Positions 7,603 to 19,978 of a stretch of 64,000 bases of DNA are shown one piece after another (within the stretch, counting starts at the first letter, position 1; each line of letters opens with the position of its first letter). This stretch comes from Methylococcus capsulatus. Its GTDB lineage: Bacteria > Pseudomonadota > Gammaproteobacteria > Methylococcales > Methylococcaceae. The position numbers and the translations under genes were made by a program. Below the pieces are notes generated by a model. The model ran no database searches, was not told the origin of the DNA, and saw only the letters and a program-made list of their open reading frames with translations. The stretch is from assembly GCF_036864975.1 (NCBI RefSeq), contig NZ_CP104311.1, forward strand, positions 846,001 through 910,000, in the 5' to 3' direction.

Positions 7603-9342
7603 GTGGGAACCCCTCCCCCAATGGCCGGCCGACTCCCTCGCGAATTCATCGACGACCTCATAGCGCGCATCGATATCGTCGATCTCATCGACGCGCGCGT
7701 CCCCTTGAAGAAGTCGGGTTCCAACTTCATGGCCCGATGCCCATTCCATTCGGAAAAGACGCCCAGTTTTTCCGTCAGCCGGGAAAAGCAGTTCTACCAT
7801 TGCTTCGGCTGCGGCGCCCATGGTAATGCCATCAGCTTTCTGATGGATTACGAACGCCAGAGCTTCCCGGAAGCCGTGGAAACTCTGGCCGCGCTGGCGG
7901 GAATCGATCTGCCCAAAGCCACGGCTACCCCTGGAGCGAATCCCTCGGCTTCGCTCCAACTCCAACCGGTCTACGACATCCTGGAGCGGGCGGCAGGCTT
8001 CTATGTCCAGCAACTTCGTGACCATCCCGACGCCGAACAGGCCAAAGTCTACCTGCTCAAACGCGGCCTGACCGGTGAGATCGCTCGCCACTACGGGCTC
8101 GGCTATGCCCCACCGGGCTGGAACAACCTGCCGGCGGACTGGCCCAGAGCGCCCCTGATTCAGAGCGGCCTGATCATCGAGAAGGATCGCTCCTGCTATG
8201 ACCGGTTCCGCCACCGCATCATGTTTCCCATCCGGGACCGGCGCGGCCGCGTCATCGGCTTCGGCGGCCGCACCCTGGGCGAGGAGACGCCTAAGTACCT
8301 GAACTCGCCGGAAACGGAGGTGTTCAAAAAAGGCAAGGAGCTATACGGCCTGCACGAGCTGTTGGAATCGGCCCCCCGGCCGCGGCGCATCCTGGTGGTC
8401 GAAGGCTACCTGGATGTCATCGCCCTGGCTCAGCACGGAGTCCACGACGCCGTCGCGACGCTCGGCACCTCCACGTCCACCGAGCATGTGCGCTTGTTGT
8501 TTCGTTTCACCAGGGAAATCGTTTTCTGTTTCGACGGCGATACCGCCGGCCGTAAGGCAGCCTGGCGCGCACTCGAAGCCAGCCTTCCGCTCTTGCAGGA
8601 AGGTCGTGAAATACGCTTCATGCACCTGCCGACAGGCGAGGACCCGGATTCGCTGATCCGCCAAGAAGGGCGCGAGGCTTTCGAGCGCCGCATCGGCCAG
8701 TCCTCGCCATGCTCGGATTACCTGTTTCGAACCCTACAAAGGGACCTGGATCTGCGCAGTGTCGAAGGACGCGCAACGCTGCAGAAACAGGCCCGTGAAC
8801 TTCTGGACCGCCTCCCGGTCGGAGTATTCAAGACGTTGATGGAGCAGCGGCTGAGCGAACTCACAGGAGTGGTGAACCCAGCGCCCGCCTCTAAACCCGT
8901 CGAAAACCGCCCGCGCCATTCTTCCGGGCAGGTGCGCTCCCCTTCCGCATGGCGAAATCTGGTCACCCTTCTGTTGCATCAACCTCGGCTCGCGGGACTC
9001 ATCTCACCAGAAATCCGAGCGCAGCTCACCAAAAACCCACGTGCCGGCCCGCTCATCGCACGCATCCTGGAATACACCGATCTGCGAAAAACTCCGACGC
9101 CGGGCATGCTGTTCGAATATCTGCGGGAAACACCAGAAGGCGAGCTGGCCCGAAACCTCTTGAAACGGGGACTGCTCACACCGGAAGAAGGGATGGAAAG
9201 GGAATTCGTCGATGCCCTCGACCGGGTAGGCGCACTGCTTCGCGACGAGCGGCTGAGCCAATTGATCGACAAGTCGAAGGTCGCTCAACTCACTGATAGT
9301 GAACGGGAAGAACTGCGGAAATTGACAGGAGGAAAATCTTGA
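7603..9342 (+). CDS. dnaG: DNA primase DnaG
   Basis: DnaG makes RNA primers at the replication fork. The N-terminal CHC2 zinc domain is seen as CPFHSEKTPSF and HCFGCGAHG (residues ~43-75). The TOPRIM catalytic core has VVEGYLDVIAL and FCFDGDTAGRKAAWRA (~265-325). The C-terminal region binds DnaB. Length is 579 aa from a GTG at 7603, which has AAGGA at 7591-7595; the ATG at 7621 is an alternative but lacks a binding site. It is the third gene of the macromolecular-synthesis operon. Confidence 0.95.
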   Translation: MGTPPPMAGRLPREFIDDLIARIDIVDLIDARVPLKKSGSNFMARCPFHSEKTPSFSVSREKQFYHCFGCGAHGNAISFLMDYERQSFPEAVETLAALAGIDLPKATATPGANPSASLQLQPVYDILERAAGFYVQQLRDHPDAEQAKVYLLKRGLTGEIARHYGLGYAPPGWNNLPADWPRAPLIQSGLIIEKDRSCYDRFRHRIMFPIRDRRGRVIGFGGRTLGEETPKYLNSPETEVFKKGKELYGLHELLESAPRPRRILVVEGYLDVIALAQHGVHDAVATLGTSTSTEHVRLLFRFTREIVFCFDGDTAGRKAAWRALEASLPLLQEGREIRFMHLPTGEDPDSLIRQEGREAFERRIGQSSPCSDYLFRTLQRDLDLRSVEGRATLQKQARELLDRLPVGVFKTLMEQRLSELTGVVNPAPASKPVENRPRHSSGQVRSPSAWRNLVTLLLHQPRLAGLISPEIRAQLTKNPRAGPLIARILEYTDLRKTPTPGMLFEYLRETPEGELARNLLKRGLLTPEEGMEREFVDALDRVGALLRDERLSQLIDKSKVAQLTDSEREELRKLTGGKS

Positions 9343-11233: not shown

Positions 11234-11310
11234 GGGCCCTTAGCTCAGTCGGTCAGAGCGAGCGACTCATAATCGCCAGGTCGTAGGTTCAAGTCCTACA
11301 GGGCCCACCA
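11234..11310 (+). tRNA. ileX: tRNA-Ile2 with CAT anticodon
   Basis: This is a 77-nt cloverleaf with encoded CCA. The acceptor GGGCCCT (11234-11240) pairs with AGGGCCC (11300-11306). The anticodon stem-loop is GCGAC-TCATAAT-CGC-like with anticodon CAT, and the T arm is TGTAGGACT-like around GTTCAAGTC. CAT could mean Met, but the body (CCCTTAGCTCAG, GCGACTCATAATCGC) follows E. coli ileX, whose C34 is changed to lysidine by TilS so that it reads AUA. Its last 15 bases are the left copy of the attachment repeat. Confidence 0.88.
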
Positions 11311-11311
11311 T
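11296..11311 (+). repeat. Left attachment site (attL core) in tRNA 3' end
   Basis: The 16-bp sequence CTACAGGGCCCACCAT covers the 3' end of tRNA-Ile2 plus one base and is repeated exactly at 19963-19978. Only this copy completes a tRNA. It is therefore the restored target end beside the integrase. Confidence 0.85.
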
Positions 11312-11344
11312 TTCAGAGTTTCACCCCGTCTCAAGACACCTCAG

Positions 11345-11376
11345 AACCCGCAAGCTACAAGGCTTTGCGGGTTTTT
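11345..11376 (+). terminator. Rho-independent terminator after tRNA-Ile2
   Basis: AACCCGCAA (11345-11353) pairs with TTGCGGGTT (11365-11373), with a short loop and a T-run continuing to 11376. It lies inside the element, just past attL, so the element supplies the terminator for the rpoD/tRNA transcript. Confidence 0.75.
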
Positions 11377-11490
11377 TGTTGTCTCACGGCATATCACCGG
11401 ATAACATCCAGTACCATCATTCCCGCTGGTAGTCCTGCTGGTATCGACCATTTCCCGAGGTTCGATGCCATCAATCCGGAGCAATCGCCC

Positions 11491-12696
11491 ATGCTGCAAG
11501 ACATCGAGGCCCGCAAGGCCAAGCCGAAGGACAAGCCCTATAAGCTGGCCGACGAAAAGGGCTTGTACCTGTTCGTCACCCCACAAGGGGGAAAGCTTTG
11601 GCGGATGAATTACCGCATCGAGGGGAAGCAAAAGACCCTATCCTTCGGGCAGTACCCGGACGTCACCCTAGCCGATGCCCGCACCCGCCGCGACGACGCC
11701 CGCCGGCTGCTGGCACAAGGCATCGACCCCGGCGCCGAGCGCAAGGCGACCAAGACCGCCGAACGGGAGACATTCGAGGCCATCGCCCGCGAATGGCATG
11801 CGAAGTTTTCACCGTCATGGGCACAGACCCACGCCAAGCGCGTGTTGGAGCGGCTGGAGAACCACATCTTTCCCTATCTGGGGAGCAAGCCAGTTTCGGG
11901 GCTGACCGCGCCTATCATCCTGGCCGTGCTGCGGCGCCTGGAGGATGCCGGCAAGGCTGAGAGCGCCCACCGGATCAAGGGTATCGTCGGGCAGGTTATG
12001 AGGTACGCGGTCGCCAGCGGACGCGCTGAATCAGATCCGACGCAATCCCTACGCGGGGCCCTGGCGCCAGTCTCTAAGGTGCATCACCCGGCGCTGCTGG
12101 ACCCCATCGAAATCGGCAAGGTGCTGCGCATCCTGCACGGCTACAGCGGCACACCGGAAGTACGCGCAGCCTTGCGACTGGGCCCGCTGGTATTCGTCCG
12201 GCCGGGTGAGCTGCGTACCATGAAATGGGAAGACCTGGATGTGGAAGCCGGCGAGTGGCGGTTCACCCTGAGCAAGACCCAAACGCCGCATATCGTGCCG
12301 CTGTCTGGCCTGGCGCTGGAGATCATCGAGGAGCTTCGACCGCTGACCGGCCGAGGCGTCTACGTCATGCCTTCGGCGCGGTCACCGTCCGGTATCAGGC
12401 CTATGTCGGAAGGCGCCGTGCTGGGGGCGTACCGCGCACTCGGGATCACCAAGGATGAACTTGTCGGTCACGGCTGGCGGGCGACGGCGCGTACGCTGCT
12501 GGTGGAAAAGCTGAGCTTCCGGGTGGACATCGTGGAGCAACAGCTTGGGCATGTGGTCCGCGATCCGCTCGGCCGCGCCTACAACCGGACCACGTTCCTT
12601 GATGAGCGCAAGGCGATGATGGAGACCTGGAGCAGATACCTTGAAGGGCTGCGCACCGGGGCCGAGATTATCCCGATCCGGCAATTCATGGCCTGA
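11491..12696 (+). CDS. int: P4-type tyrosine integrase
   Basis: This 401-aa tyrosine recombinase catalyses integration at the tRNA 3' end beside it. The N-terminal arm-binding (DUF4102-like) domain is recognisable in AKPKDKPYKLADEKGLYLFV, followed by a SAM-like core-binding domain. The catalytic residues are in FVRPGELR (Arg), HGWRATART (His-x2-Arg), LGHV (His) and RAYNRT (Tyr). I place the start at ATG 11491, matching the family N-terminus; the frame is open to a TTG at 11365 that lies in the terminator hairpin and is unlikely. The tRNA-proximal position and orientation are usual for P4-type islands. Confidence 0.93.
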   Translation: MLQDIEARKAKPKDKPYKLADEKGLYLFVTPQGGKLWRMNYRIEGKQKTLSFGQYPDVTLADARTRRDDARRLLAQGIDPGAERKATKTAERETFEAIAREWHAKFSPSWAQTHAKRVLERLENHIFPYLGSKPVSGLTAPIILAVLRRLEDAGKAESAHRIKGIVGQVMRYAVASGRAESDPTQSLRGALAPVSKVHHPALLDPIEIGKVLRILHGYSGTPEVRAALRLGPLVFVRPGELRTMKWEDLDVEAGEWRFTLSKTQTPHIVPLSGLALEIIEELRPLTGRGVYVMPSARSPSGIRPMSEGAVLGAYRALGITKDELVGHGWRATARTLLVEKLSFRVDIVEQQLGHVVRDPLGRAYNRTTFLDERKAMMETWSRYLEGLRTGAEIIPIRQFMA

Positions 12697-12798
12697 TACA
12701 CTGAGTTCACCACGCCTAGCCCGGCCAGGCGACAAGCGGGACACCTTCACCCGTTGGCGTGGTTCCTATCTTGAAGGACTGCCTTTGAAGGAGGGCGA

Positions 12799-13251
12799 AT
12801 GGACGACCAGCCAGAAGACCATCTGCGCCAGCTCAAATATCTTCCGTTGCATGCCGGCCTGAAGTGCGATGTGTACCACCGTGGAATGACCCACGTCCGG
12901 AGGATGAGCCTTGCCGCTGAAGTTATCTGCCGTGAATTTGAGGCCGGTAACGTCTCGCCAGAAGCCCTGGAGGCATTTAGCGCCTATGCCGGGCAGCTCT
13001 ATGCGGCGCTGAATCCAAGCGCCCACATTTCAGCCAGGGCGAAGCACAGCCGCAACAAGCTGGCCGAACCCGTAAAAGATTTCGTGGCCACCAGATATGA
13101 GTCTGGCAAGCCCTGGAAGAGCAAGCGCCAGGCCGCAAAGAAAATTCATGTGGAGGTTGAACGGCTGATCGAAACAGGCGAGCTTCCCCGAGTGCTATCG
13201 CCGGATCGGGCGTTTCAAACTATCTACGATTGGGTTCGCAAGCCAGGGTAG
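12799..13251 (+). CDS. Hypothetical protein of satellite element
   Basis: This 150-aa soluble protein has no domain that I recognise. A good ribosome binding site (GAAGGAGGG) stands seven or so bases before the ATG. The C-terminal half is basic and ends in HVEVERLIETGELPRVLSPDR-like sequence (key part: KRQAAKKIHVEVERLI), which looks like a helix-turn-helix segment. It lies between the integrase and the AlpA-like regulator, where many islands keep small regulators. A DNA-binding role is a guess from charge and context. Confidence 0.65.
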   Translation: MDDQPEDHLRQLKYLPLHAGLKCDVYHRGMTHVRRMSLAAEVICREFEAGNVSPEALEAFSAYAGQLYAALNPSAHISARAKHSRNKLAEPVKDFVATRYESGKPWKSKRQAAKKIHVEVERLIETGELPRVLSPDRAFQTIYDWVRKPG

Positions 13252-13253
13252 TG

Positions 13254-13267
13254 CGCGACGCGTCGCG
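13254..13267. promoter_or_regulatory. Perfect 14-bp palindrome before alpA-like gene
   Basis: CGCGACGCGTCGCG is a perfect palindrome that starts right after the stop of the 150-aa gene, about 90 bp before the AlpA-like gene. A related half-site (ACGTCGCGC) follows about 13 bp later, at 13279-13287. It is a candidate operator for the AlpA-like protein or another island regulator. Confidence 0.4.
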
Positions 13268-13356
13268 TATACGTTTCACGTCGCGCATCGTAGCGAGGTT
13301 ATAGCCCGCCAAGTCATCCTTTCATCGCACACCAACAGGCAAAAGGAGCCTAAGCG

Positions 13357-13614
13357 ATGAAAGACAACCTACTTCCTCAAACCGGCTTTGTCCGCCAGGC
13401 CGATCTTGTCGGCACCCGCGCCCGGCCGGCGACACGGACCAAGAAGGCCCGGCCGGCGACCAAGGGCATTCTTCCCGTGAGCGCTCCGACATTGTGGCGC
13501 ATGATCCGAGACGGCCGGTTTCCAAGGCCGGTCAAACTCTCGCCCGGCGTGAGCGCCTTCCGCGTCGAGGACGTCCGGAACTGGATGGAATCTCAGGGCA
13601 AGGAGGCCGCATGA
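13357..13614 (+). CDS. alpA: AlpA-family transcriptional regulator / excisionase-like protein
   Basis: This 85-aa protein has a winged helix-turn-helix of the AlpA (MerR-like) type in its C-terminal half: VSAPTLWRMIRDGRFPRPVKL and then FRVEDVRNWMES (quoted here in pieces of 20 or fewer: SAPTLWRMIRDGRFPRPVKL). The N-terminal 40 residues are an Arg/Ala/Pro-rich extension. An AAAAGGAG site precedes the ATG. In P4-like satellites and PICIs, AlpA activates excision and replication genes. Position after int is consistent with that. Confidence 0.8.
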   Translation: MKDNLLPQTGFVRQADLVGTRARPATRTKKARPATKGILPVSAPTLWRMIRDGRFPRPVKLSPGVSAFRVEDVRNWMESQGKEAA

Positions 13615-13894
13615 TCGCCTTCGCCTACTACGACACGCCCATGAAGCCCAGCCGGCGCGATCGAAAGCCAAAGCGAGGGTGGCGAAAACGACGAAGCCCG
13701 CGGGCAGGCGGGCTTCATCTTCGGACGGCGAGCTTGGGGAAGGGCTCACCGGAAAGCATAAGCCCGGCTCCCGCTTTCGGCAAGGCTTCCATCAAGAAGT
13801 CTGATAATAGGCCCGCACGATCCGCTGTAAGCTGTTTCCCGTTCCCCATGCGCACATGGGGGCAGGCTTGGCGGCCTGAGCGGAAGCGGCAATC

Positions 13895-13925
13895 AGCCGC
13901 ACAGCATTCGCAATGCGGCTTTTTT
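13895..13925 (+). terminator. Intrinsic terminator upstream of C4-like RNA
   Basis: AGCCGCA (13895-13901) pairs with TGCGGCT (13914-13920), followed by a run of T to 13925. It directly precedes the C4-like RNA region, as timm-type terminators do in P4-like immunity regions. Another 8-bp hairpin, GAAGCCCG/CGGGCTTC, lies at 13693-13716 but lacks a T-run. Confidence 0.6.
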
Positions 13926-14035
13926 GCGTCTGGCGTCTCCCTCTATGGGCGGGCCGGATGGGAGAGCCGCAAGGCTCTGCCGGTGCTTCCCCGGTCCGCC
14001 AACCTGTCCGGTACCGTCCACCAGCTTGGCGGCTG
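13926..14035 (+). ncRNA. C4-like antisense RNA / Ash-family locus
   Basis: The region resembles the C4 (P4 CI) antisense RNA of phage immunity loci. A 6-bp stem AGAGCC/GGCTCT is closed by a GCAA tetraloop at 13963-13978, flanked by GGGCCGGAT and GCCGGTGCTTCCCCGGTCCGCC-like pairing partners (key bases GGCCGG and CCGGT). One reading frame across it gives YGRAGWESRKALPV, the hallmark peptide of the Ash family (PF10554), which is commonly annotated over such RNAs. In P1/P4 phages this RNA blocks translation of an antirepressor or replication gene. Identification is by memory of the pattern; a covariance search would settle it. Limits are approximate. Confidence 0.5.
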
Positions 14036-14072
14036 GCGGGCGGTTCGTAATCCGAACCGAAGGAAGCACATC

Positions 14073-14345
14073 ATGAACCACCCCACCCTTGGCGAAATCC
14101 GCCCGAAAACCCTCGCCCGCTGCGATGCCGACCAGCTCGACAGCGAGGTTTTCCAACTCGCCGACCGTCTGGAAAACCTCGCCATTCTCTGCCGGCAACT
14201 GACCGAGTATTACCCGAGCGTCCGCGACTTGAAGGCCGTCGAGCGCAACGTCAAATCCGCCCATGCGGCGCTGGAGAAAGCGAAATCTCCGACCCGAGGG
14301 CTTTGGAATCTGAGCACGGAAACCGCCGCCACGGAGGGCCGGTAA
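14073..14345 (+). CDS. Small satellite protein, hypothetical
   Basis: This 90-aa protein starts at ATG 14073, after GAAGGAAG. It is helical and acidic-basic mixed, with SEVFQLADRLENLAILCRQL and an amphipathic second helix around LKAVERNVKSAHAALEKAK. I do not recognise a family. The reading frame extends upstream through the Ash-like region, but the binding site favours this start. It shares its TAA with the next ATG (TAATG), so it is coupled to the downstream gene. Confidence 0.65.
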   Translation: MNHPTLGEIRPKTLARCDADQLDSEVFQLADRLENLAILCRQLTEYYPSVRDLKAVERNVKSAHAALEKAKSPTRGLWNLSTETAATEGR

Positions 14346-14557
14346 TGAGCGCCGATACCTTTCACGAAACCACCAACCAGGTAATCAATCGGGTCACGGC
14401 CTGGACCCTCGCGGCCGTCGAGCTTCTCGAGATCGCCGACCGCCACCCCGAGCAGCCCGGCGCCCGCGATCCCGAGCGCCTTCGCGTCATCGCCGATACG
14501 CTGGCGGACGTTTCCGCAGAGCTGCGCAACCTGGTCGTCGAAGGGGGTGCAGCATGA
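14345..14557 (+). CDS. Small satellite protein, hypothetical
   Basis: This 70-aa helical protein starts at the ATG of a TAATG junction and ends in an ATGA junction with the next gene. It reads NQVINRVTAWTLAAVELLEI and then an arginine-rich helix, DPERLRVIADTLADVSAELR. No domain is recognised. The tight coupling on both sides argues that it is translated as part of the primase operon. Confidence 0.6.
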   Translation: MSADTFHETTNQVINRVTAWTLAAVELLEIADRHPEQPGARDPERLRVIADTLADVSAELRNLVVEGGAA

Positions 14558-14808
14558 GCCGCGAATTCTTCAACGGTACCGCGCACTCGACACAAGCAAT
14601 CCGAGCCCTGCTGAGGGCCCGGTTCGGCGATGGGAACTTCCGCATTGGCAGGTCCGGGGCGATCTACGTGCGTGCCGTCCAGGCGAACGAGAAAAAGCCG
14701 CGTTGGCTGCTTTTCGGAGACATCGGCGCGACCGACACCGAGCGGAGGCTTGACCGGCTGGCGGCCGAGTTCGGCGAGGGCTCAAGTGGCGGGCACGGCC
14801 ATGCGTAG
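14554..14808 (+). CDS. Small satellite protein, hypothetical
   Basis: This 84-aa protein is joined by ATGA to the gene before and overlaps the start of the primase gene by 8 bp. Its core alternates basic and hydrophobic residues (FRIGRSGAIYVRAVQANEKK, then PRWLLFGDIG), suggesting a small beta-rich fold. I do not recognise it. It is likely expressed together with the primase. Confidence 0.6.
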   Translation: MSREFFNGTAHSTQAIRALLRARFGDGNFRIGRSGAIYVRAVQANEKKPRWLLFGDIGATDTERRLDRLAAEFGEGSSGGHGHA

Positions 14809-17056
14809 CGCACAGGTTGAGAGAGCAGACACCCGGCCCGAGGCGCTGCCCGTCGATTTCGACGCGATCCCGCCAGAACTGAAGGAACGCCCCCGCTGGT
14901 GCGTCTGGCGCTACGAATGGGACGCCGGCAAGAACCGATGGATCAAACCACCAAGGTCCGTGATCCCGCCCAACCAGGCTATCAGCGTGAACGATCCGGG
15001 GCCCTGGGGATCGTTTGAGATGGCCCGCCAGGCGTACGAGCGGGGCGGATGGAGCGGCGTTGGCATCCTGCTGGACGGCGACGGCATCACCGCCTTGGAC
15101 CTGGACAAGTGCATGGATCCGGCTACCGGCGAACTGACGGAGGATGCCGGTGCGGTGCTGGCCGAGTTCGACGGCACCTACACCGAGCGTTCACCGTCCG
15201 GCCGCGGTATCCGTGCCCTGTGCCGTGGCAGGCTGGCAAGGGACGGCCACAAGTCGGCGGAGCATGGTTTCGAGGCTTACCAGAAAGGCCGATACGTCAC
15301 GATCACCGGGCAGGCCATGTGCCCGCCTGGCACCGGCATAGACGACGCTCAGGAGGCCCTTGATTGGTTCCTGTCCACGTACTTCCCGACCGACCGCCAG
15401 AACACCGCCGACCCAGCCAGACCGATTGCCCCCACCTGTGCGCCAGAGGATGCAGCCAACCAGGCCGGCCCGAGCGATGAGGACGTCTTGAGCAAGGCCC
15501 GAAGCAAGTCGGAGTTCGTGGCGCTGTTCGATGAGGGGAACCTTGACCAGTTCGGCGGCGACCACTCAAAAGCGGACTACCGGCTGATGTGTTATCTGGC
15601 GTTTTGGACCGGACGGAATACCGACCAAATGGCGCGGCTATTCCAGGCATCGGCGCTGGGCCAGCGAGGCAAGGCCAACCGCCCGGACTATCTCGGGCGG
15701 ACCATCGAGGCGGCGCTGTCCAGAACCAGCGAGGCGTATGCCTGGAACACAGGGGTGGTATCTGATCCGTTCGACTTCGGCGAAGACGGCGACCAGGGCG
15801 GCGGGTCTACCGCCCTGCCCGGAACCGGCAAAGCCCAAGCGCTCAAGATGGTCGAAATCATCCACGCCGAATCGATCCAGCCGAAGCCGATCCGATGGCT
15901 TTGGCGCGGCTGGCTGGCGCGGGGCAAGCTGCACGTGATCGCGGGCGCACCCGGCACCGGGAAAACTTCAATAGCCCTGGCGCTGGCCGCGACCATCACC
16001 ACGGCCGGACGCTGGCCGGATGGATCGGCGGCCGAGCCGGGAAACGTGCTGATCTGGAGCGGCGAGGACGACCCGCACGACACACTCGTTCCCCGCCTAC
16101 TGGCTGCCGGGGCGGATCGGTCACGCTGCTATTTTGTCGGCGACGTGGCGGACATGGGGGAGCGGCGGGTATTCGACCCGGCGAAAGACATGGCGGCGCT
16201 GGCCCAGGTAGCCAGGCGTATCGGCGACATCCGGCTGATGATCGTTGACCCTATCGTATCGGCAGTATCCGGCGACTCCCACAAAAACGCCGAAGTTCGC
16301 CGCGGGCTGGCTCCACTGGTGGAGCTGGCCGGCAAGCTCGATTGCGCCTTGCTGGGCGTCTCGCACTTCAGCAAGGGAACGGCCGGCCGTGATCCGTTGG
16401 AGCGGGTGACCGGCTCGTTAGCGTTCGGGGCGCTGGCCCGGATCGTGTTCGCGGCGTTCAAGGAGTCCGAGGATGATGGCGGGGGCCGGGTGTTCTGCCG
16501 TACCAAGTCAAACATCGGTCCGGATGTTGGCGGCTTCCGCTATGACCTTCGCACCGACGAGCTGCCGGGGTTCCCCGGCGTCGAGGCGTCGTCCGTGCTG
16601 TGGGGCGAAGCCGTGGACGGATCGGCGCGGGACCTGCTGGCGAGGGCTGAAGCGGTCACCGACCCCGACGAGCGGACAGCCGTGGGCGAGGCTTGCGGCT
16701 TTCTTCAGGCATTGCTTGCTGATGGGCCGGTATCGTCAAGGGCGGTTAGAAGTGAGTGCGAAGGAGCGGGGCACGCATGGTCAACGGTGCGCCGTGCCCA
16801 GAAACAACTCGGCGTTATCGTCTCGAAGGGAGGCGGACGTTTTGGCGGCGGCAAGCAACAATGGACATGGGCGCTGCCGGACAGAAGGTGCTCAAAAAAC
16901 CCAGAAGATGCCCGTCAAAAAACGTGGGCAACTTCTGGGAGTGATGAGCACCTTGTGGAAGGTGACCAAGATGCTCAAGGCATGGACACCTTCTGCAATG
17001 ATGAGTCACCGGAGACGGCCAAAATTTACCCCTGGAGCAAGGAGGCAGCCCGATGA
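14801..17056 (+). CDS. Primase-polymerase / RecA-fold helicase fusion (satellite replicase)
   Basis: This 751-aa protein is the element's replication protein. The N-terminus resembles phage NrS-1-type primase-polymerases: PPELKERPRWCVWRYEW, an acidic LDGDGITALDLDKCM, SPSGRGIRALCRG and KGRYVTITG (residues ~15-170). A helix-bundle domain follows (YRLMCYLAFWTGRN, ~250). The C-terminal half is a RepA/AAA_25-type ATPase with Walker A GAPGTGKTS (~385) and LIWSGEDDPHD. I start it at ATG 14801, overlapping the gene before; the frame is open further up but the family N-terminus sits here. It is equivalent to the pri-rep gene of PICIs. The domain calls are by eye. Confidence 0.85.
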   Translation: MRSAQVERADTRPEALPVDFDAIPPELKERPRWCVWRYEWDAGKNRWIKPPRSVIPPNQAISVNDPGPWGSFEMARQAYERGGWSGVGILLDGDGITALDLDKCMDPATGELTEDAGAVLAEFDGTYTERSPSGRGIRALCRGRLARDGHKSAEHGFEAYQKGRYVTITGQAMCPPGTGIDDAQEALDWFLSTYFPTDRQNTADPARPIAPTCAPEDAANQAGPSDEDVLSKARSKSEFVALFDEGNLDQFGGDHSKADYRLMCYLAFWTGRNTDQMARLFQASALGQRGKANRPDYLGRTIEAALSRTSEAYAWNTGVVSDPFDFGEDGDQGGGSTALPGTGKAQALKMVEIIHAESIQPKPIRWLWRGWLARGKLHVIAGAPGTGKTSIALALAATITTAGRWPDGSAAEPGNVLIWSGEDDPHDTLVPRLLAAGADRSRCYFVGDVADMGERRVFDPAKDMAALAQVARRIGDIRLMIVDPIVSAVSGDSHKNAEVRRGLAPLVELAGKLDCALLGVSHFSKGTAGRDPLERVTGSLAFGALARIVFAAFKESEDDGGGRVFCRTKSNIGPDVGGFRYDLRTDELPGFPGVEASSVLWGEAVDGSARDLLARAEAVTDPDERTAVGEACGFLQALLADGPVSSRAVRSECEGAGHAWSTVRRAQKQLGVIVSKGGGRFGGGKQQWTWALPDRRCSKNPEDARQKTWATSGSDEHLVEGDQDAQGMDTFCNDESPETAKIYPWSKEAAR

Positions 17057-17487
17057 CCACCCGAGCGAAACACCGCGCCGATCCGGCGCACAGGAGGCCG
17101 GGTATGCTGACACCAGACCGCTTGCGGCGGCTACAGGGCGAGTTCCCGGAATGGCAGGTACGAATGCTGCCCGGCGGCGCTATCGCGGCCAGACCGCCAC
17201 GGTACGCGGACTGGGGCGCATTCGGACGGCGGCTGGACGAGCTGGCAGCCTTGCCGGTCTGGGCACCCCCTGTGTTCCATGTGATCCAGAGACCGCCTGA
17301 ACCGAAGAAGTGCAAGGACTGCCGATGGTTCGCCTTGAAGCCGGGACGGCGCTGGATGGGGCGTTGCCAGCTCCATGACTTCGACGTGACGGCCGGCCGC
17401 CGGCGATGCTGGCGGGCCGAGCATCCACCCACCCAAGGGCAGGAGGCCGGCCATGCTGAGCGCCAGGCAGCAAAAAGGCCGACCTGA
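17053..17487 (+). CDS. Cysteine-containing satellite protein, hypothetical
   Basis: This 144-aa protein is joined to the primase gene by an ATGA overlap. The C-terminal half has CKDCRWF, GRCQLHDF and a later RRRCW, which could bind a metal ion. The N-terminal half includes LTPDRLRRLQGEFPEWQVR. I do not recognise a family. Its position suggests an accessory role in replication. Confidence 0.6.
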   Translation: MTTRAKHRADPAHRRPGMLTPDRLRRLQGEFPEWQVRMLPGGAIAARPPRYADWGAFGRRLDELAALPVWAPPVFHVIQRPPEPKKCKDCRWFALKPGRRWMGRCQLHDFDVTAGRRRCWRAEHPPTQGQEAGHAERQAAKRPT

Positions 17488-17574
17488 TTGCTCAAGCCGG
17501 CCTTCCCGTCATTCCCATGAATCGCGACACTCGCCAATCAGTCTCGAATCTGATGGGCGGACCTTGAGGATACC

Positions 17575-17967
17575 ATGAATCGAGAATTTGACGACCCCAA
17601 CAACCCGGCCTGTAAACTCTGCCGGGACTGCGAAATCTATTTCAAACCCGTCCGTCCGTGGCACGTGCAGTGCCCGAACTGCTGGCGCATCGAGCTGAAA
17701 ACATCCGCCCATAGCCTGCATCAAGGAGATCGGGACCGCCTTGACCATGCCGTGCTCGAGCTTGATTTCGTCCCGGCGGTAGGAGGCCCGTACTTCAAGG
17801 GCACGCCTATCACCGAACTGAGCGATGCCGCCGCCTGCTACCTGTTCAGGCGATGGCTTAGGCAGGAGCGGGACCGGATCGCCCGAGAACACGACACAGC
17901 GGCCCGCCGGCGCAGTATCCGTGCCGTGCCCGATCCGGACGACGATCCGCCGCCCAAGGCGGCATGA
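17575..17967 (+). CDS. Zinc-ribbon-like satellite protein, hypothetical
   Basis: This 130-aa protein has four cysteines in the pattern CKLCRDC ... QCPNCWR within residues 13-41, typical of a small zinc ribbon. The middle is acidic-hydrophobic (LELDFVPAVGGPYF) and the tail is basic and then proline-rich. It follows the primase operon by about 90 bp. No family is recognised; nucleic-acid contact is a guess from the zinc ribbon. Confidence 0.6.
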   Translation: MNREFDDPNNPACKLCRDCEIYFKPVRPWHVQCPNCWRIELKTSAHSLHQGDRDRLDHAVLELDFVPAVGGPYFKGTPITELSDAAACYLFRRWLRQERDRIAREHDTAARRRSIRAVPDPDDDPPPKAA

Positions 17968-17999
17968 TCCTTCCACCCCGCCCACCATAGGAGTACACC

Positions 18000-18320
18000 A
18001 TGAAACCCCTGCGTCCAACCCACCCGTCCGCCACCGTGAGCGTCGGCTCGACGCCCGCCGTCATGGCCCACCTGGCAGCGAAACAGGGCAGCACCAGCCT
18101 TGCCCCAGTCAAGCCGGTGAAAGCCCCGCCAGCGGTCCCACAGCCGGTACAGAAGCCGGTCGATCTACAAGCCCTGCTGCGAGGATTGCACGAACTGCGG
18201 TGCGAGCTTCGAGAGTTCCAGGGCAGGCCGATGAGCGAGCACGAGAAGGCCATGCACCGCGCCAAGCTGGGCGTCACGCCGCTGCCGGGTGAACCGGTCG
18301 TGATTCACGTCCCACGCTGA
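18000..18320 (+). CDS. Hypothetical protein with low-complexity linker
   Basis: The 106-aa product begins with a Pro/Lys/Val-rich disordered half (APVKPVKAPPAVPQPVQKPV) and ends with a charged helix (LHELRCELREFQGRPMSEHE). It lies 32 bp after the zinc-ribbon gene. A purine-rich stretch ATAGGAG stands before the ATG. I cannot assign a function. Confidence 0.55.
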   Translation: MKPLRPTHPSATVSVGSTPAVMAHLAAKQGSTSLAPVKPVKAPPAVPQPVQKPVDLQALLRGLHELRCELREFQGRPMSEHEKAMHRAKLGVTPLPGEPVVIHVPR

Positions 18321-18332
18321 CCGCGGCGCACG

Positions 18333-18365
18333 AAAAAGCCCCGGAGGCCGAAGCCTGCCGGGGCT
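18333..18365 (-). terminator. Terminator for the leftward coiled-coil gene
   Basis: AGCCCCGG (18337-18344) pairs with CCGGGGCT (18358-18365). On the minus strand the hairpin is followed by TTTTT (18333-18337), so it ends transcription of the coiled-coil gene. It also separates it from the rightward genes. Confidence 0.65.
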
Positions 18366-18398
18366 GATCCCGTATGCGCGGTTATCGTACCGCCGGCA

Positions 18399-19073
18399 TC
18401 ACGCCGATTCCACCTCTGCCTTGAAGACCGCTTCGGCGGCTTTCGCCTTGTCGCGGTACTGGACGTACATGTGGACGGGTGATCCGTACTGGTGCAGTTT
18501 TTCAGAACATGCCAGCACGTCTTGCGGGAACATTTTGCTGTCTATCACCAGACGCGGAGCCATCAGCGGATCCGTGTCCCTGAAAATGAATGCCTTGTCC
18601 GAGAGCCGGCACAGGGCGTAGAGCTTCATTGCGGATTCCTCGACCTGCTTGAGCAGGCTTTCGTAGTTCTCGGCTTCGGCGCGGGCAAGTTCGAGATAGT
18701 GCGTCTTCGTGGCGGCCGCCAGCTCTTTCCCGAGTTCCTTCAAAGCGGCCTTCTCCTGGTCGATAAGGCCCGCCACCGCGGTCGAGTTCTTCGCCGGAGC
18801 CATGTCCACGGCGGCGATGCGGCCTTTCAGTTCTTCGGCCAGGGCAGAAGCCTTGCCCGCCACTTTCTCGTTCACCGCGCGGCCGACAAGCCGGTCCAGC
18901 TCGACTGTCTGAAGCTGTTCGTTGACCTGAGCCAGCTCGGCCTCGAGCGCCCCGCGTTCGGCCGATCTGGCTGCGGCCTGTTCGCTCAAGTCGGCATGGA
19001 TGGCCTGGAGACGTTCGACTTCGGCCTGGCCGGCTTCGATTTTGCGCTTGAGTGCGGAAACCTGTTCGATCAT
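18399..19073 (-). CDS. Coiled-coil protein of satellite, hypothetical
   Basis: This 224-aa protein is the only leftward gene in the element. Residues ~5-70 form a strong heptad coiled coil (LKRKIEAGQAEVERLQAIHA), with a second helical stretch near 105-150. The C-terminal ~75 residues look globular (FIFRDTDPLMAPRLVIDSKM, CSEKLHQYGS). The start at 19073 follows AGGAAAA; an in-frame ATG at 19106 is less likely. It is divergent from terS across a short region with an ATACCA/TGGTAT inverted repeat. I recognise no family; a role in regulating or interfering with a helper phage is only speculation. Confidence 0.65.
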   Translation of the reverse strand: MIEQVSALKRKIEAGQAEVERLQAIHADLSEQAAARSAERGALEAELAQVNEQLQTVELDRLVGRAVNEKVAGKASALAEELKGRIAAVDMAPAKNSTAVAGLIDQEKAALKELGKELAAATKTHYLELARAEAENYESLLKQVEESAMKLYALCRLSDKAFIFRDTDPLMAPRLVIDSKMFPQDVLACSEKLHQYGSPVHMYVQYRDKAKAAEAVFKAEVESA

Positions 19074-19113
19074 GATATTTTCCTTTACAAAGGTTATAAA
19101 AAGCATTCATATG

Positions 19114-19128
19114 ATACCATTTTGGTAT
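19114..19128. promoter_or_regulatory. Inverted repeat between coiled-coil gene and terS
   Basis: ATACCA-TTT-TGGTAT is a perfect 6-bp inverted repeat with a 3-bp spacer, in the 72-bp divergent gap. The same hexamer, TGGTAT, recurs near both element ends (around 11438-11443 and at 19882-19902). It is a candidate operator or accessory protein site. Confidence 0.4.
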
Positions 19129-19148
19129 AACAAACCTAGAGGTTAATG

Positions 19149-19580
19149 ATGACCAGTGATCTGAAATTGAACCGGCGGCAGACTGCCTTTGCGGAGCACT
19201 ACGCGAAGTCTGGTAACGCCACGGAGGCAGCGCGGGCGGCAGGGTATTCGGAGCGGTCGGCAAACCGGATCGGACCGAAATTGTTGTCAGATGTTGGTAT
19301 CGCGGCCTACGTCGAGGAGCTGGCGGAAAAGTTGCGATCGAAACGCATCGCCGATGTGGTGGAGCTGCGGGAGTTCTGGACCGGGATCATGCGCAATCCA
19401 GCCGAGGAGACGCGGGACCGCATCAAGGCGGCCGAGCTGCTGGCAAAGTCGCTGGGGCTGTTCCTGGAGAAGGTCCAACTATCCGGCCCGAACGGCGCAC
19501 CGTTGGGTCCGCCGCCGAACCTGGTCATCAATTTCGTGCCGGCAAAGGACGGCATGCCCGTGATCGAGGCCACACCATGA
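19149..19580 (+). CDS. terS: Terminase small subunit (TerS-like)
   Basis: This 143-aa protein looks like the Terminase_2 family: LNRRQTAFAEHYAKSGNATEAARAAGYS is the typical N-terminal helix-turn-helix (key part: RQTAFAEHY and NATEAARAAGYS). A helical middle (RIKAAELLAKSLGLF) forms the oligomerisation part. Small subunits recognise viral DNA for packaging by a large subunit. No large subunit is present in the element, so packaging would rely on a helper phage, as in PICIs. ATG 19146 directly precedes ATG 19149; either may be used. It overlaps the next gene by 4 bp. Confidence 0.82.
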   Translation: MTSDLKLNRRQTAFAEHYAKSGNATEAARAAGYSERSANRIGPKLLSDVGIAAYVEELAEKLRSKRIADVVELREFWTGIMRNPAEETRDRIKAAELLAKSLGLFLEKVQLSGPNGAPLGPPPNLVINFVPAKDGMPVIEATP

Positions 19581-19789
19581 CTCGGGAGGATCGGCTGGCG
19601 GCGCTGGAGCCGAGGGCATCGCTTGAGATGCTGGTCAAGGCCGCCGAGATGGAGCAGGAGGCCGCCAGATTCCGGCGCACGGCCTTGGAGACCCTGGCCC
19701 GGTATCGGCTGGCGGACTGGGAGCATGGGGCAAGGCTGCTGGGGCTCGACCCGGAGGAGGTCCGGCGGATGATCGAGCAGACGGAGTGA
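19577..19789 (+). CDS. Small protein coupled to terS, hypothetical
   Basis: This 70-aa helical, charged protein is joined to terS by an ATGA overlap. It reads MTREDRLAALEPRASLEML, then a long helix with EMEQEAARFRRTALETLARY, and ends RRMIEQTE. It could assist TerS or be a small regulator. No family is recognised. Confidence 0.55.
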   Translation: MTREDRLAALEPRASLEMLVKAAEMEQEAARFRRTALETLARYRLADWEHGARLLGLDPEEVRRMIEQTE

Positions 19790-19813
19790 TAGACGTCTAC
19801 CCCCACCCGGAAG

Positions 19814-19837
19814 GCCCGCCATCGAGCGGGCTTTTTT
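19814..19837 (+). terminator. Rho-independent terminator after terS operon
   Basis: GCCCGC (19814-19819) pairs with GCGGGC (19826-19831), followed by TTTTTT. It ends the rightward operon of the element. Confidence 0.8.
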
Positions 19838-19879
19838 GTATCATCAAGGATCGCGGAGTTTCACCTAAGCGCCGAAGGA

Positions 19880-19903
19880 ATTATGGTATTTCTGATGGTA
19901 TTT
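19880..19903 (+). repeat. Tandem TGGTAT sites near right element end
   Basis: ATGGTATTT occurs twice (about 19881 and 19895) within 25 bp, roughly 65 bp inside attR. Matching CTGGTA and CTGGTAT sites are found about 125-145 bp inside attL (11429-11443). Such short repeats at both ends are typical of integrase arm-type sites. Confidence 0.4.
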
Positions 19904-19962
19904 GAGGAAACGCGACGAGCCATTGGCCTATGAATCCTTGGCTGTGCCGGATTGTTCAGTAG

Positions 19963-19978
19963 CTACAGGGCCCACCAT
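19963..19978 (+). repeat. Right attachment site (attR core)
   Basis: CTACAGGGCCCACCAT repeats exactly the bases at 11296-11311. Upstream it has no tRNA body, so this is the displaced copy made by integration. Chromosomal DNA resumes after it. Confidence 0.85.

Follow-up and report, generated by a model that had tools for sequence, protein, structure and literature searches.

Among the described phage satellites closest to the locus reported here, Gram-negative phage-inducible chromosomal islands (PICIs), EcCICFT073 and its kin, are typically 12-15 kb long (PMC6092414), and an average of 9.5 kb is given for PICIs (PMC10803314). PMC6092414 describes them by an integrase, AlpA and primase-replication module in that order, mostly rightward genes, an optional small terminase subunit (TerS) and the absence of structural or lytic genes, and states that their attachment (att) sites are never used by prophages. 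P4 (PMC8628076, NC_001609) has an AlpA-type regulator (Vis) and a C4 antisense RNA (cI) ahead of its primase operon. The PICMI of Vibrionaceae are small islands with an integrase, a small gene, alpA and a primase in this order, located at fis, with a DUF3987/DUF5906 primase and no terS homolog found (PMC10803314), while in SaPIs TerS redirects packaging (PMC6092414). Here we describe an 8,683-bp island, at positions 11296-19978 of a 64,000-nt stretch (the window) of a closed 3.43-Mb genome of the genus Methylococcus, that shares features with several of these families.

We regard the island as, quite probably, a phage satellite of the integrative kind whose chassis is P4-like: a C4 RNA would hold replication off, and TerS would divert the terminase of a helper phage, much as PICIs do. 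Its order is integrase, int-alpA RNA, a 150-aa open reading frame (ORF), AlpA, C4 RNA, three small ORFs and a primase-polymerase/helicase, followed by three ORFs, a 235-aa ORF on the opposite strand, TerS and a 70-aa ORF. A phage satellite in an environmental gammaproteobacterium had been proposed in an earlier note made from the sequence alone, and this is the best reading of the locus, backed by empty insertion sites, paired repeats, the C4 RNA and a second lone TerS. New here are the paired 12-bp arm-like repeats, a C4 RNA with covarying targets, an iteron-like dyad and a second island with a lone TerS. Our searches of an open-licence library gave no earlier account of a methanotroph or Methylococcus phage satellite; the one paper returned for phage satellites and methanotrophs concerns an ocean element, and a word search of the main text of PMC12924245 gave neither 'PICI' nor 'P4-like'.

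By the features that PMC6092414 lists, the island has the integrase, regulator and replication order, rightward transcription, the optional TerS and no structural or lytic family, and on its gene content it is likely a PICI. A possible further likeness to Gram-negative PICIs (PMC6092414) is the iteron-like dyad where the replication gene ends. The island differs from these in its 8.7-kb size, in the C4 RNA ahead of the replication operon and in a SaPI/NrS-1-type primase linked to an AAA_25 domain; EcCICFT073, unlike the island, has a capsid gene, seen in the CFT073 region, and no TerS (PMC6092414). With P4 the island shares the integrase family, AlpA/Vis and the C4 RNA before the primase operon, and it adds TerS. 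Two of seven P4 marker genes (PMC8628076) are present, integrase and AlpA, and four were not found: psu, delta, epsilon and alpha (PF07455, PF04606, PF10554, PF03288) are absent from the Pfam matches at E up to 1. With four of the seven not found, and sid not searched for, we rejected membership of the P4-like family. In the label 'PICI/P4-like' of the earlier note, the PICI half is partly supported, by order, direction, the lack of structural genes and TerS, with a size below the range, and the P4 half lacks those four markers. The island shares gene order and small size with PICMI, but lies at tRNA-Ile2 and carries TerS, and neither DUF is among the Pfam matches of its primase. Like SaPIs it has a TerS; unlike them, it is in a Gram-negative host and has AlpA and C4 where no Stl-type repressor was recognised. 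The case blurs the boundary between the P4-like and PICI families.

Insertion site and attachment region

The features at the two ends of the island are:
11234..11310, forward strand: tRNA-Ile2 gene (CAT), intact integration target (ARAGORN; Rfam tRNA, 70.9 bits; E. coli tRNA-Ile matches)
11296..11311, forward strand: attL core, 16-bp repeat (exact repeat; empty sites)
11421..11444, forward strand: tandem 12-bp pair, putative integrase arm sites (10/12 identical; 109 nt to the core)
19881..19904, forward strand: tandem 12-bp pair, putative arm sites of the other side (10/12 identical; 58 nt to the core)
19963..19978, forward strand: attR core, 16-bp repeat (exact repeat; empty sites)

A repeat search showed the island to be bounded by exact 16-bp repeats, the first of which is the 3' end of an intact tRNA gene with anticodon CAT, as the earlier note had read both the repeat and its target. 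The gene was assigned to tRNA-Ile2 and not to tRNA-Met because the three E. coli matches listed for it (89.7% over 77/77 bases) are annotated as tRNA-Ile. It lies directly behind a 599-aa ORF that we named rpoD by reading its sequence. Among the five congeners compared at this site (G001-G005), four (G002-G005) have the empty site that the earlier note had suggested looking for: the tRNA gene is joined directly to right-flank-like sequence, starting from the first base of attR. The repeat pair is therefore not a chance one.

The fifth congener, G001, has a related element at the tRNA-Ile2 site, cut by the contig end (L085:984-7989), with an integrase 93% and an AlpA 78% identical to those of the island and a related C4 region. 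Judged by these sequences, modules appear to have been swapped between the two elements. Of the island that the earlier note had suggested looking for at this tRNA gene in related genomes, the integrase and AlpA recurred, with a different replication module. In the G001 element, an ATPase and SSB replication module, named by reading without a family search, replaces the primase. Use of the att site comprises four empty congeners, this one related element and an island in genome G217, described below, whose products include an LPD38 protein and one of virion-like type.

Next to each core lies a tandem 12-bp pair resembling integrase arm sites. The register of the right pair was chosen, 19883 being equally good, and the right arm unit matches the left unit at 10/12 positions. 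From the rest of the window, the chance expectation of such pairs in the end stretches is 0.036 (left) and 0.034 (right); outside the island, the 55 kb of the window contain 11 equally good pairs, and one more lies inside int. In P4 (NC_001609), annotated 12-bp arm repeats form tandem pairs on both sides of the attP core, 112 and 53 nt off, so that the paired layout and the distances are alike, while the sequence of the arm unit is not. Since arm-like pairs are kept on both sides, we argue that the element may still be able to recombine.

C4 antisense RNA and putative origin

The control and replication region contains the following elements:
13868..13874, forward strand: a1 target (TTGGCGG), complementary to C4 a'
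13882..13887, forward strand: b1 target (GGAAGC), complementary to the C4 b' loop
13895..13925, forward strand: terminator-like hairpin with a T run, between b1 and C4 (fold z -2.8)
13941..14025, forward strand: C4 antisense RNA (RF01695), an immunity RNA (49.8 bits, gathering score 45)
14026..14032, forward strand: a2 target (TTGGCGG), complementary to C4 a'
14062..14068, forward strand: b2 target (GGAAGCA), overlapping the likely Shine-Dalgarno sequence of orf90 (ATG at 14073)
16882..16957, no strand assigned: iteron-like dyad, putative origin, at the 3' end of the primase gene (32-nt arms, 81% complementary)

The C4 RNA adopts the fold expected of its family (-45 kcal/mol, z -3.4), in which two stretches stay free, the loop TGCTTCC (b') and the segment CCGCCAA (a'). 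The loop is complementary to the likely Shine-Dalgarno sequence of orf90 and to an upstream target, and a' to two flanking targets. The hairpin ahead of C4 was absent from the list of a simple terminator scan. Release of C4 by cutting of the transcript, and an early end of transcription, are known from P1 and P4.

We compared the pairing of b' loops with their own and with non-own targets. Across ten loci, the island and its relatives, the mean scores were 17.3 and 18.5 for own targets vs 10.3 and 10.9 for non-own ones, and 0/20000 permutations reached the own-target fit, a count that is not a strict probability because the loci are related and each b' loop holds an anti-Shine-Dalgarno piece. 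An enlarged set took 35 of the 82 C4 places found in the host's order; one locus (L233) was skipped for its odd loop and another (L239) dropped as a twin of L216. Among the 33 loci parsed, with 31 different loops, the pairing of b' with its own target reaches 6 nt or more in 29 downstream and in 22 upstream, compared with 11% and 7% of non-own pairings. Counted as failures among the 33 are four loci (L216, L224, L227, L232) whose loops the looser pattern misread; a stricter loop reading gave pairings of 7-9 nt for L224, L227, L232 and the twin of L216. C4 loops are thus mostly matched to their own ribosome site. One decayed element (L074) has lost its upstream C4 target. C4 RNAs are abundant in the order, with 82 places (80 over the gathering score) in 26 of 61 genomes and up to 13 per genome.

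The P4 immunity region matches RF01695 at 74.9 bits, and the CFT073 region that we took for EcCICFT073 gave no C4 match at the gathering score. Together with the covarying targets, this makes the control layer of the island P4-like. A PICI-like island would thereby offer a candidate antisense RNA with a predicted target.

The dyad is the strongest in the island, and its score was reached by 0/40 Markov shuffles. Its arms, 12 nt apart, contain units like AGAAGRTGCYC that flank an A-rich stretch, and the GC content of the region is 51% vs 65% for the primase gene. In PICIs, the origin lies 3' of the rep gene and consists of two iteron sets, one on each side of an AT-rich stretch (PMC6092414); the island dyad lies inside the last 180 bases of the primase gene and not 3' of it.

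TerS, its relatives and the presumed helper phage

TerS and the element ahead of it are:
19114..19128, no strand assigned: palindrome ATACCATTTTGGTAT ahead of terS, sharing TGGTAT with the putative arm sites
19146..19580, forward strand: TerS, 144 aa, with no large subunit in the island (PF03592, Terminase_2, 73.2 bits; phrog_51)

The terS gene forms a separate unit near the right end of the island. The palindrome sits between the divergent 235-aa ORF and terS and contains TGGTAT, which is also the core of the putative arm sites; of the 15 copies of this hexamer in the window, 9 lie inside the island vs 2.1 expected. It may couple terS expression to binding of Int or AlpA.

The solved chain nearest to TerS is 3zqp. 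Relatives of TerS are rare, occurring in 2/38 family genomes (E <=1e-6) and 2/369 class genomes (E <=1e-12), own genome included, and a search of the genome-contig collection returned a G001 contig only. On this contig (C119) lies the closest TerS found, 48% identical and also lone, in a 6.8-kb island (L178:2442-9290) at tRNA-Thr(CGT) bounded by 48-bp repeats (2442-2489 and 9243-9290). The island contains an integrase, a winged-helix regulator, a primase with a D5-type helicase, an iteron dyad and TerS; none of its ORFs that were scanned encodes a large terminase. Its dyad resembles that of the first island and lies directly behind the primase (7945-8034, TTGGTAACCC units). The N domains of the two primases are related (31% over 159 residues); their helicase parts differ, with D5_N in the G001 island and AAA_25 here, and the integrases resemble each other over 70 residues only. 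A third island, of about 14.8 kb, occupies the same tRNA-Ile2 gene in G217, a host of another family (contig C18, L205:8845 to L203:11752), between neighbours read as rpoD and dnaG. It carries an integrase, a DUF3987 protein without a match to the island primase, a virion-like ORF (phrog_8003), a 1803-aa LPD38 protein and, last, a TerS. The integrases of the three TerS islands share short C-terminal matches only (29% over 70 and 25% over 225 residues).

In the phage relatives of TerS, the large subunit (TerL) adjoins TerS where looked at. Of 72 TerS loci on viral contigs, 31 have a downstream ORF of at least 250 aa. We scanned 30 downstream ORFs, namely 29 of these 31 (L108 and L162 left out) and the TerL of congener G002 (L196), and found Terminase_3 in 20 and, overlapping, Terminase_6N in 14; two Stenotrophomonas phages have TerS, TerL and portal in order. 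The likely helper class is therefore a tailed phage with a Terminase_3 (PBSX/SPP1-type) TerL, as the commonest type behind these relatives where looked at. A TerL of the fitting type does occur in the genus, since G002 carries a Terminase_3 TerL; only the surroundings of this gene were viewed, and the one neighbouring ORF scanned is not PF03592. Searches with phrog_2 in six genus genomes returned Mu-like and Terminase_3-type TerL genes, and weak matches that we took for other ATPases, while PF03354 was not found in the own genome and was positive in 3/14 control genomes.

The own genome contains two near-identical Mu-like prophages (G000:C1:928224-965076 and G000:C1:1942001-1978986; L194, L195, L198, L241, L242). 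The copies are 99.7-99.8% identical over 17.7 and 17.9 kb, the second having been followed to 1942001, which suggests a recent transposition, and each carries a C4 RNA. The island b' loop pairs over 3-4 nt with the Mu-like targets vs 6-7 nt with its own, and the Mu-like loop over 4 and 6 nt with the island targets vs 7-8 nt with its own.

Taken together, a P4-type control layer and a PICI-type packaging gene mean that the island probably spreads by having its DNA packaged by a phage. In the integrated state, the C4 RNA would be cleaved from the same transcript's leader and pair with the upstream and downstream targets, ending transcription early and blocking translation, so that replication stays off. 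A signal from a helper phage would raise expression or AlpA, upon which AlpA and the integrase would excise the island and the primase-helicase would copy it from the iteron-like origin. Finally, TerS would recruit the large terminase of the helper, and island DNA would be packaged in helper particles.

Several results weigh against such a satellite. Searched against its own genome, the island TerS found only itself, and the search of 38 family genomes likewise gave no helper whose TerS is related. The TerS of the resident Mu-like prophages belongs to another family (Mu Gp27-type, PF11985), and a Mu-like phage is for that reason an unlikely helper. No pac site is demonstrated, no interference gene was recognised in the island, and a pattern scan of IMG/VR, whose reach is limited to close relatives, gave no close relative of the primase. 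The G217 TerS is 30% identical to that of the island, and phage TerS reach 40%; being below many phage TerS, it counts as weak support. A TerS tree, into which 56 of 77 rows were entered (the other 21 being duplicates or short pieces), was resolved too poorly to place the three island TerS in one group or apart, and did not unite them, with 3 label changes as in shuffles; given this and the 30% identity, a satellite TerS lineage is not established. Finally, 8.7 kb is below the range of Gram-negative PICIs, which we did not count as excluding a PICI because PMC6092414 says 'typically' and the average in PMC10803314 is 9.5 kb.

It is improbable that the island is instead a decayed prophage, the remnant of a larger temperate phage in which integrase, regulator, primase and TerS survive and the structural genes are gone. 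The TerS and integrase families do occur in phages as well, and many ORFs are without a recognised function, two of them with weak head-tail or tape-measure matches. Decay, however, fits poorly with recognised ORFs that are intact and closely spaced, with the retention of both att cores and arm-like pairs, with the lone 48% identical TerS in a second island at another tRNA, and with the absence of any structural or lysis family over cut-off. Slightly less probable still is a self-contained integrative element with a P4-like chassis and plasmid-like replication, whose TerS would be cargo or serve phage interference without packaging of the island: no TerS match came from the congener elements that have C4 and a related helicase domain, and no helper was found in the own genome, the family sample or the genus genomes, but TerS is the last recognised phage gene in the second Methylococcus island and, distantly, in the G217 island, and no conjugation or mobilisation family is among the matches.

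For the island as a satellite, a wider claim stands at slightly less than even chances: that methanotroph satellites join P4-type control (antisense immunity, paired arms) to PICI-type TerS packaging, the TerS module moving among islands that differ in integrase, site and helicase. If this is true, private C4 loops, each fitted to its own ribosome site, would let many satellites and prophages share a genome without mutual silencing. PMC12924245 discusses the risk that phages pose to Methylococcus cultures in industry, in which a satellite within the genus could alter phage behaviour.

Other genes of the island

The remaining features are:
11491..12696, forward strand: P4-type tyrosine integrase, 401 aa (Arm-DNA-bind_3, Phage_int_M and Phage_integrase, Pfam)
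12709..12777, forward strand: int-alpA RNA (RF02996; 62.5 bits, gathering score 35.8)
12799..13251, forward strand: ORF of 150 aa between int and alpA (no family over cut-off)
13357..13614, forward strand: AlpA-family regulator/excisionase, 85 aa (PF05930, 23.8 bits, cut-off 21; phrog_66)
14073..14345, forward strand: orf90, first gene behind C4 (relatives in congener elements L070, L072 and L073)
14345..14557, forward strand: small ORF, 70 aa
14554..14808, forward strand: small ORF, 84 aa
14801..17056, forward strand: primase-polymerase/helicase, 751 aa (AAA_25 and NrS-1 HBD, Pfam; phrog_1829)
17053..17487, forward strand: ORF, 144 aa
17575..17967, forward strand: ORF, 130 aa
18000..18320, forward strand: ORF, 106 aa
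18399..19106, reverse strand: ORF of 235 aa, probably coiled coil, divergent from terS
19577..19789, forward strand: ORF of 70 aa, overlapping the end of terS

Of the 13 ORFs taken as genes, 12 point rightward, the 235-aa ORF being the exception. Family scans covered 15 ORFs with Pfam and 14 with PHROGs. Pfam confirmed the integrase, AlpA, primase-helicase and lone TerS named in the earlier note, whose statement that structural phage genes are absent was also upheld: no portal, capsid, tail, lysis or large-terminase family was over the Pfam cut-off in the 15 ORFs, two ORFs having weak matches. Conjugation genes, which it had named as contrary evidence, were equally missing from the Pfam and PHROGs matches, as were mobilisation families.

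Of the two ORFs with weak matches, the 150-aa ORF has no family over cut-off in Pfam, PHROGs, PADLOC or NCBIfam, and a sub-threshold Pfam match to Head-tail_con (E 0.06, 12.2 bits vs a cut-off of 27). The 235-aa ORF matches a tape-measure PHROG at E 0.018; in the same four collections its matches are weak and coiled-coil-like. Each is present in the own genome only (1/61 searched). For the island ORFs without an assigned function, PADLOC and NCBIfam gave weak matches only.

The N part of the primase matches the solved primases 7ola (2e-25), 6k9a and their kin, labelled 'DNA primase' and 'Primase' in the structure table. We take 7ola to be SaPI5 Rep, which would be a further likeness to SaPIs, and 6k9a to be the NrS-1 polymerase. 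No relative of the primase was found in the genome-contig collection. The int-alpA RNA folds no better than shuffles (z -1.2), and a simple scan for promoters and terminators of the island performed at or below chance.

Four further elements in congeners G001, G002 and G004 (L068, L070, L072, L073) have in common with the island a C4 RNA and an AAA_25 domain (60-69%). They gave no TerS match and carry what reads like a serine recombinase.

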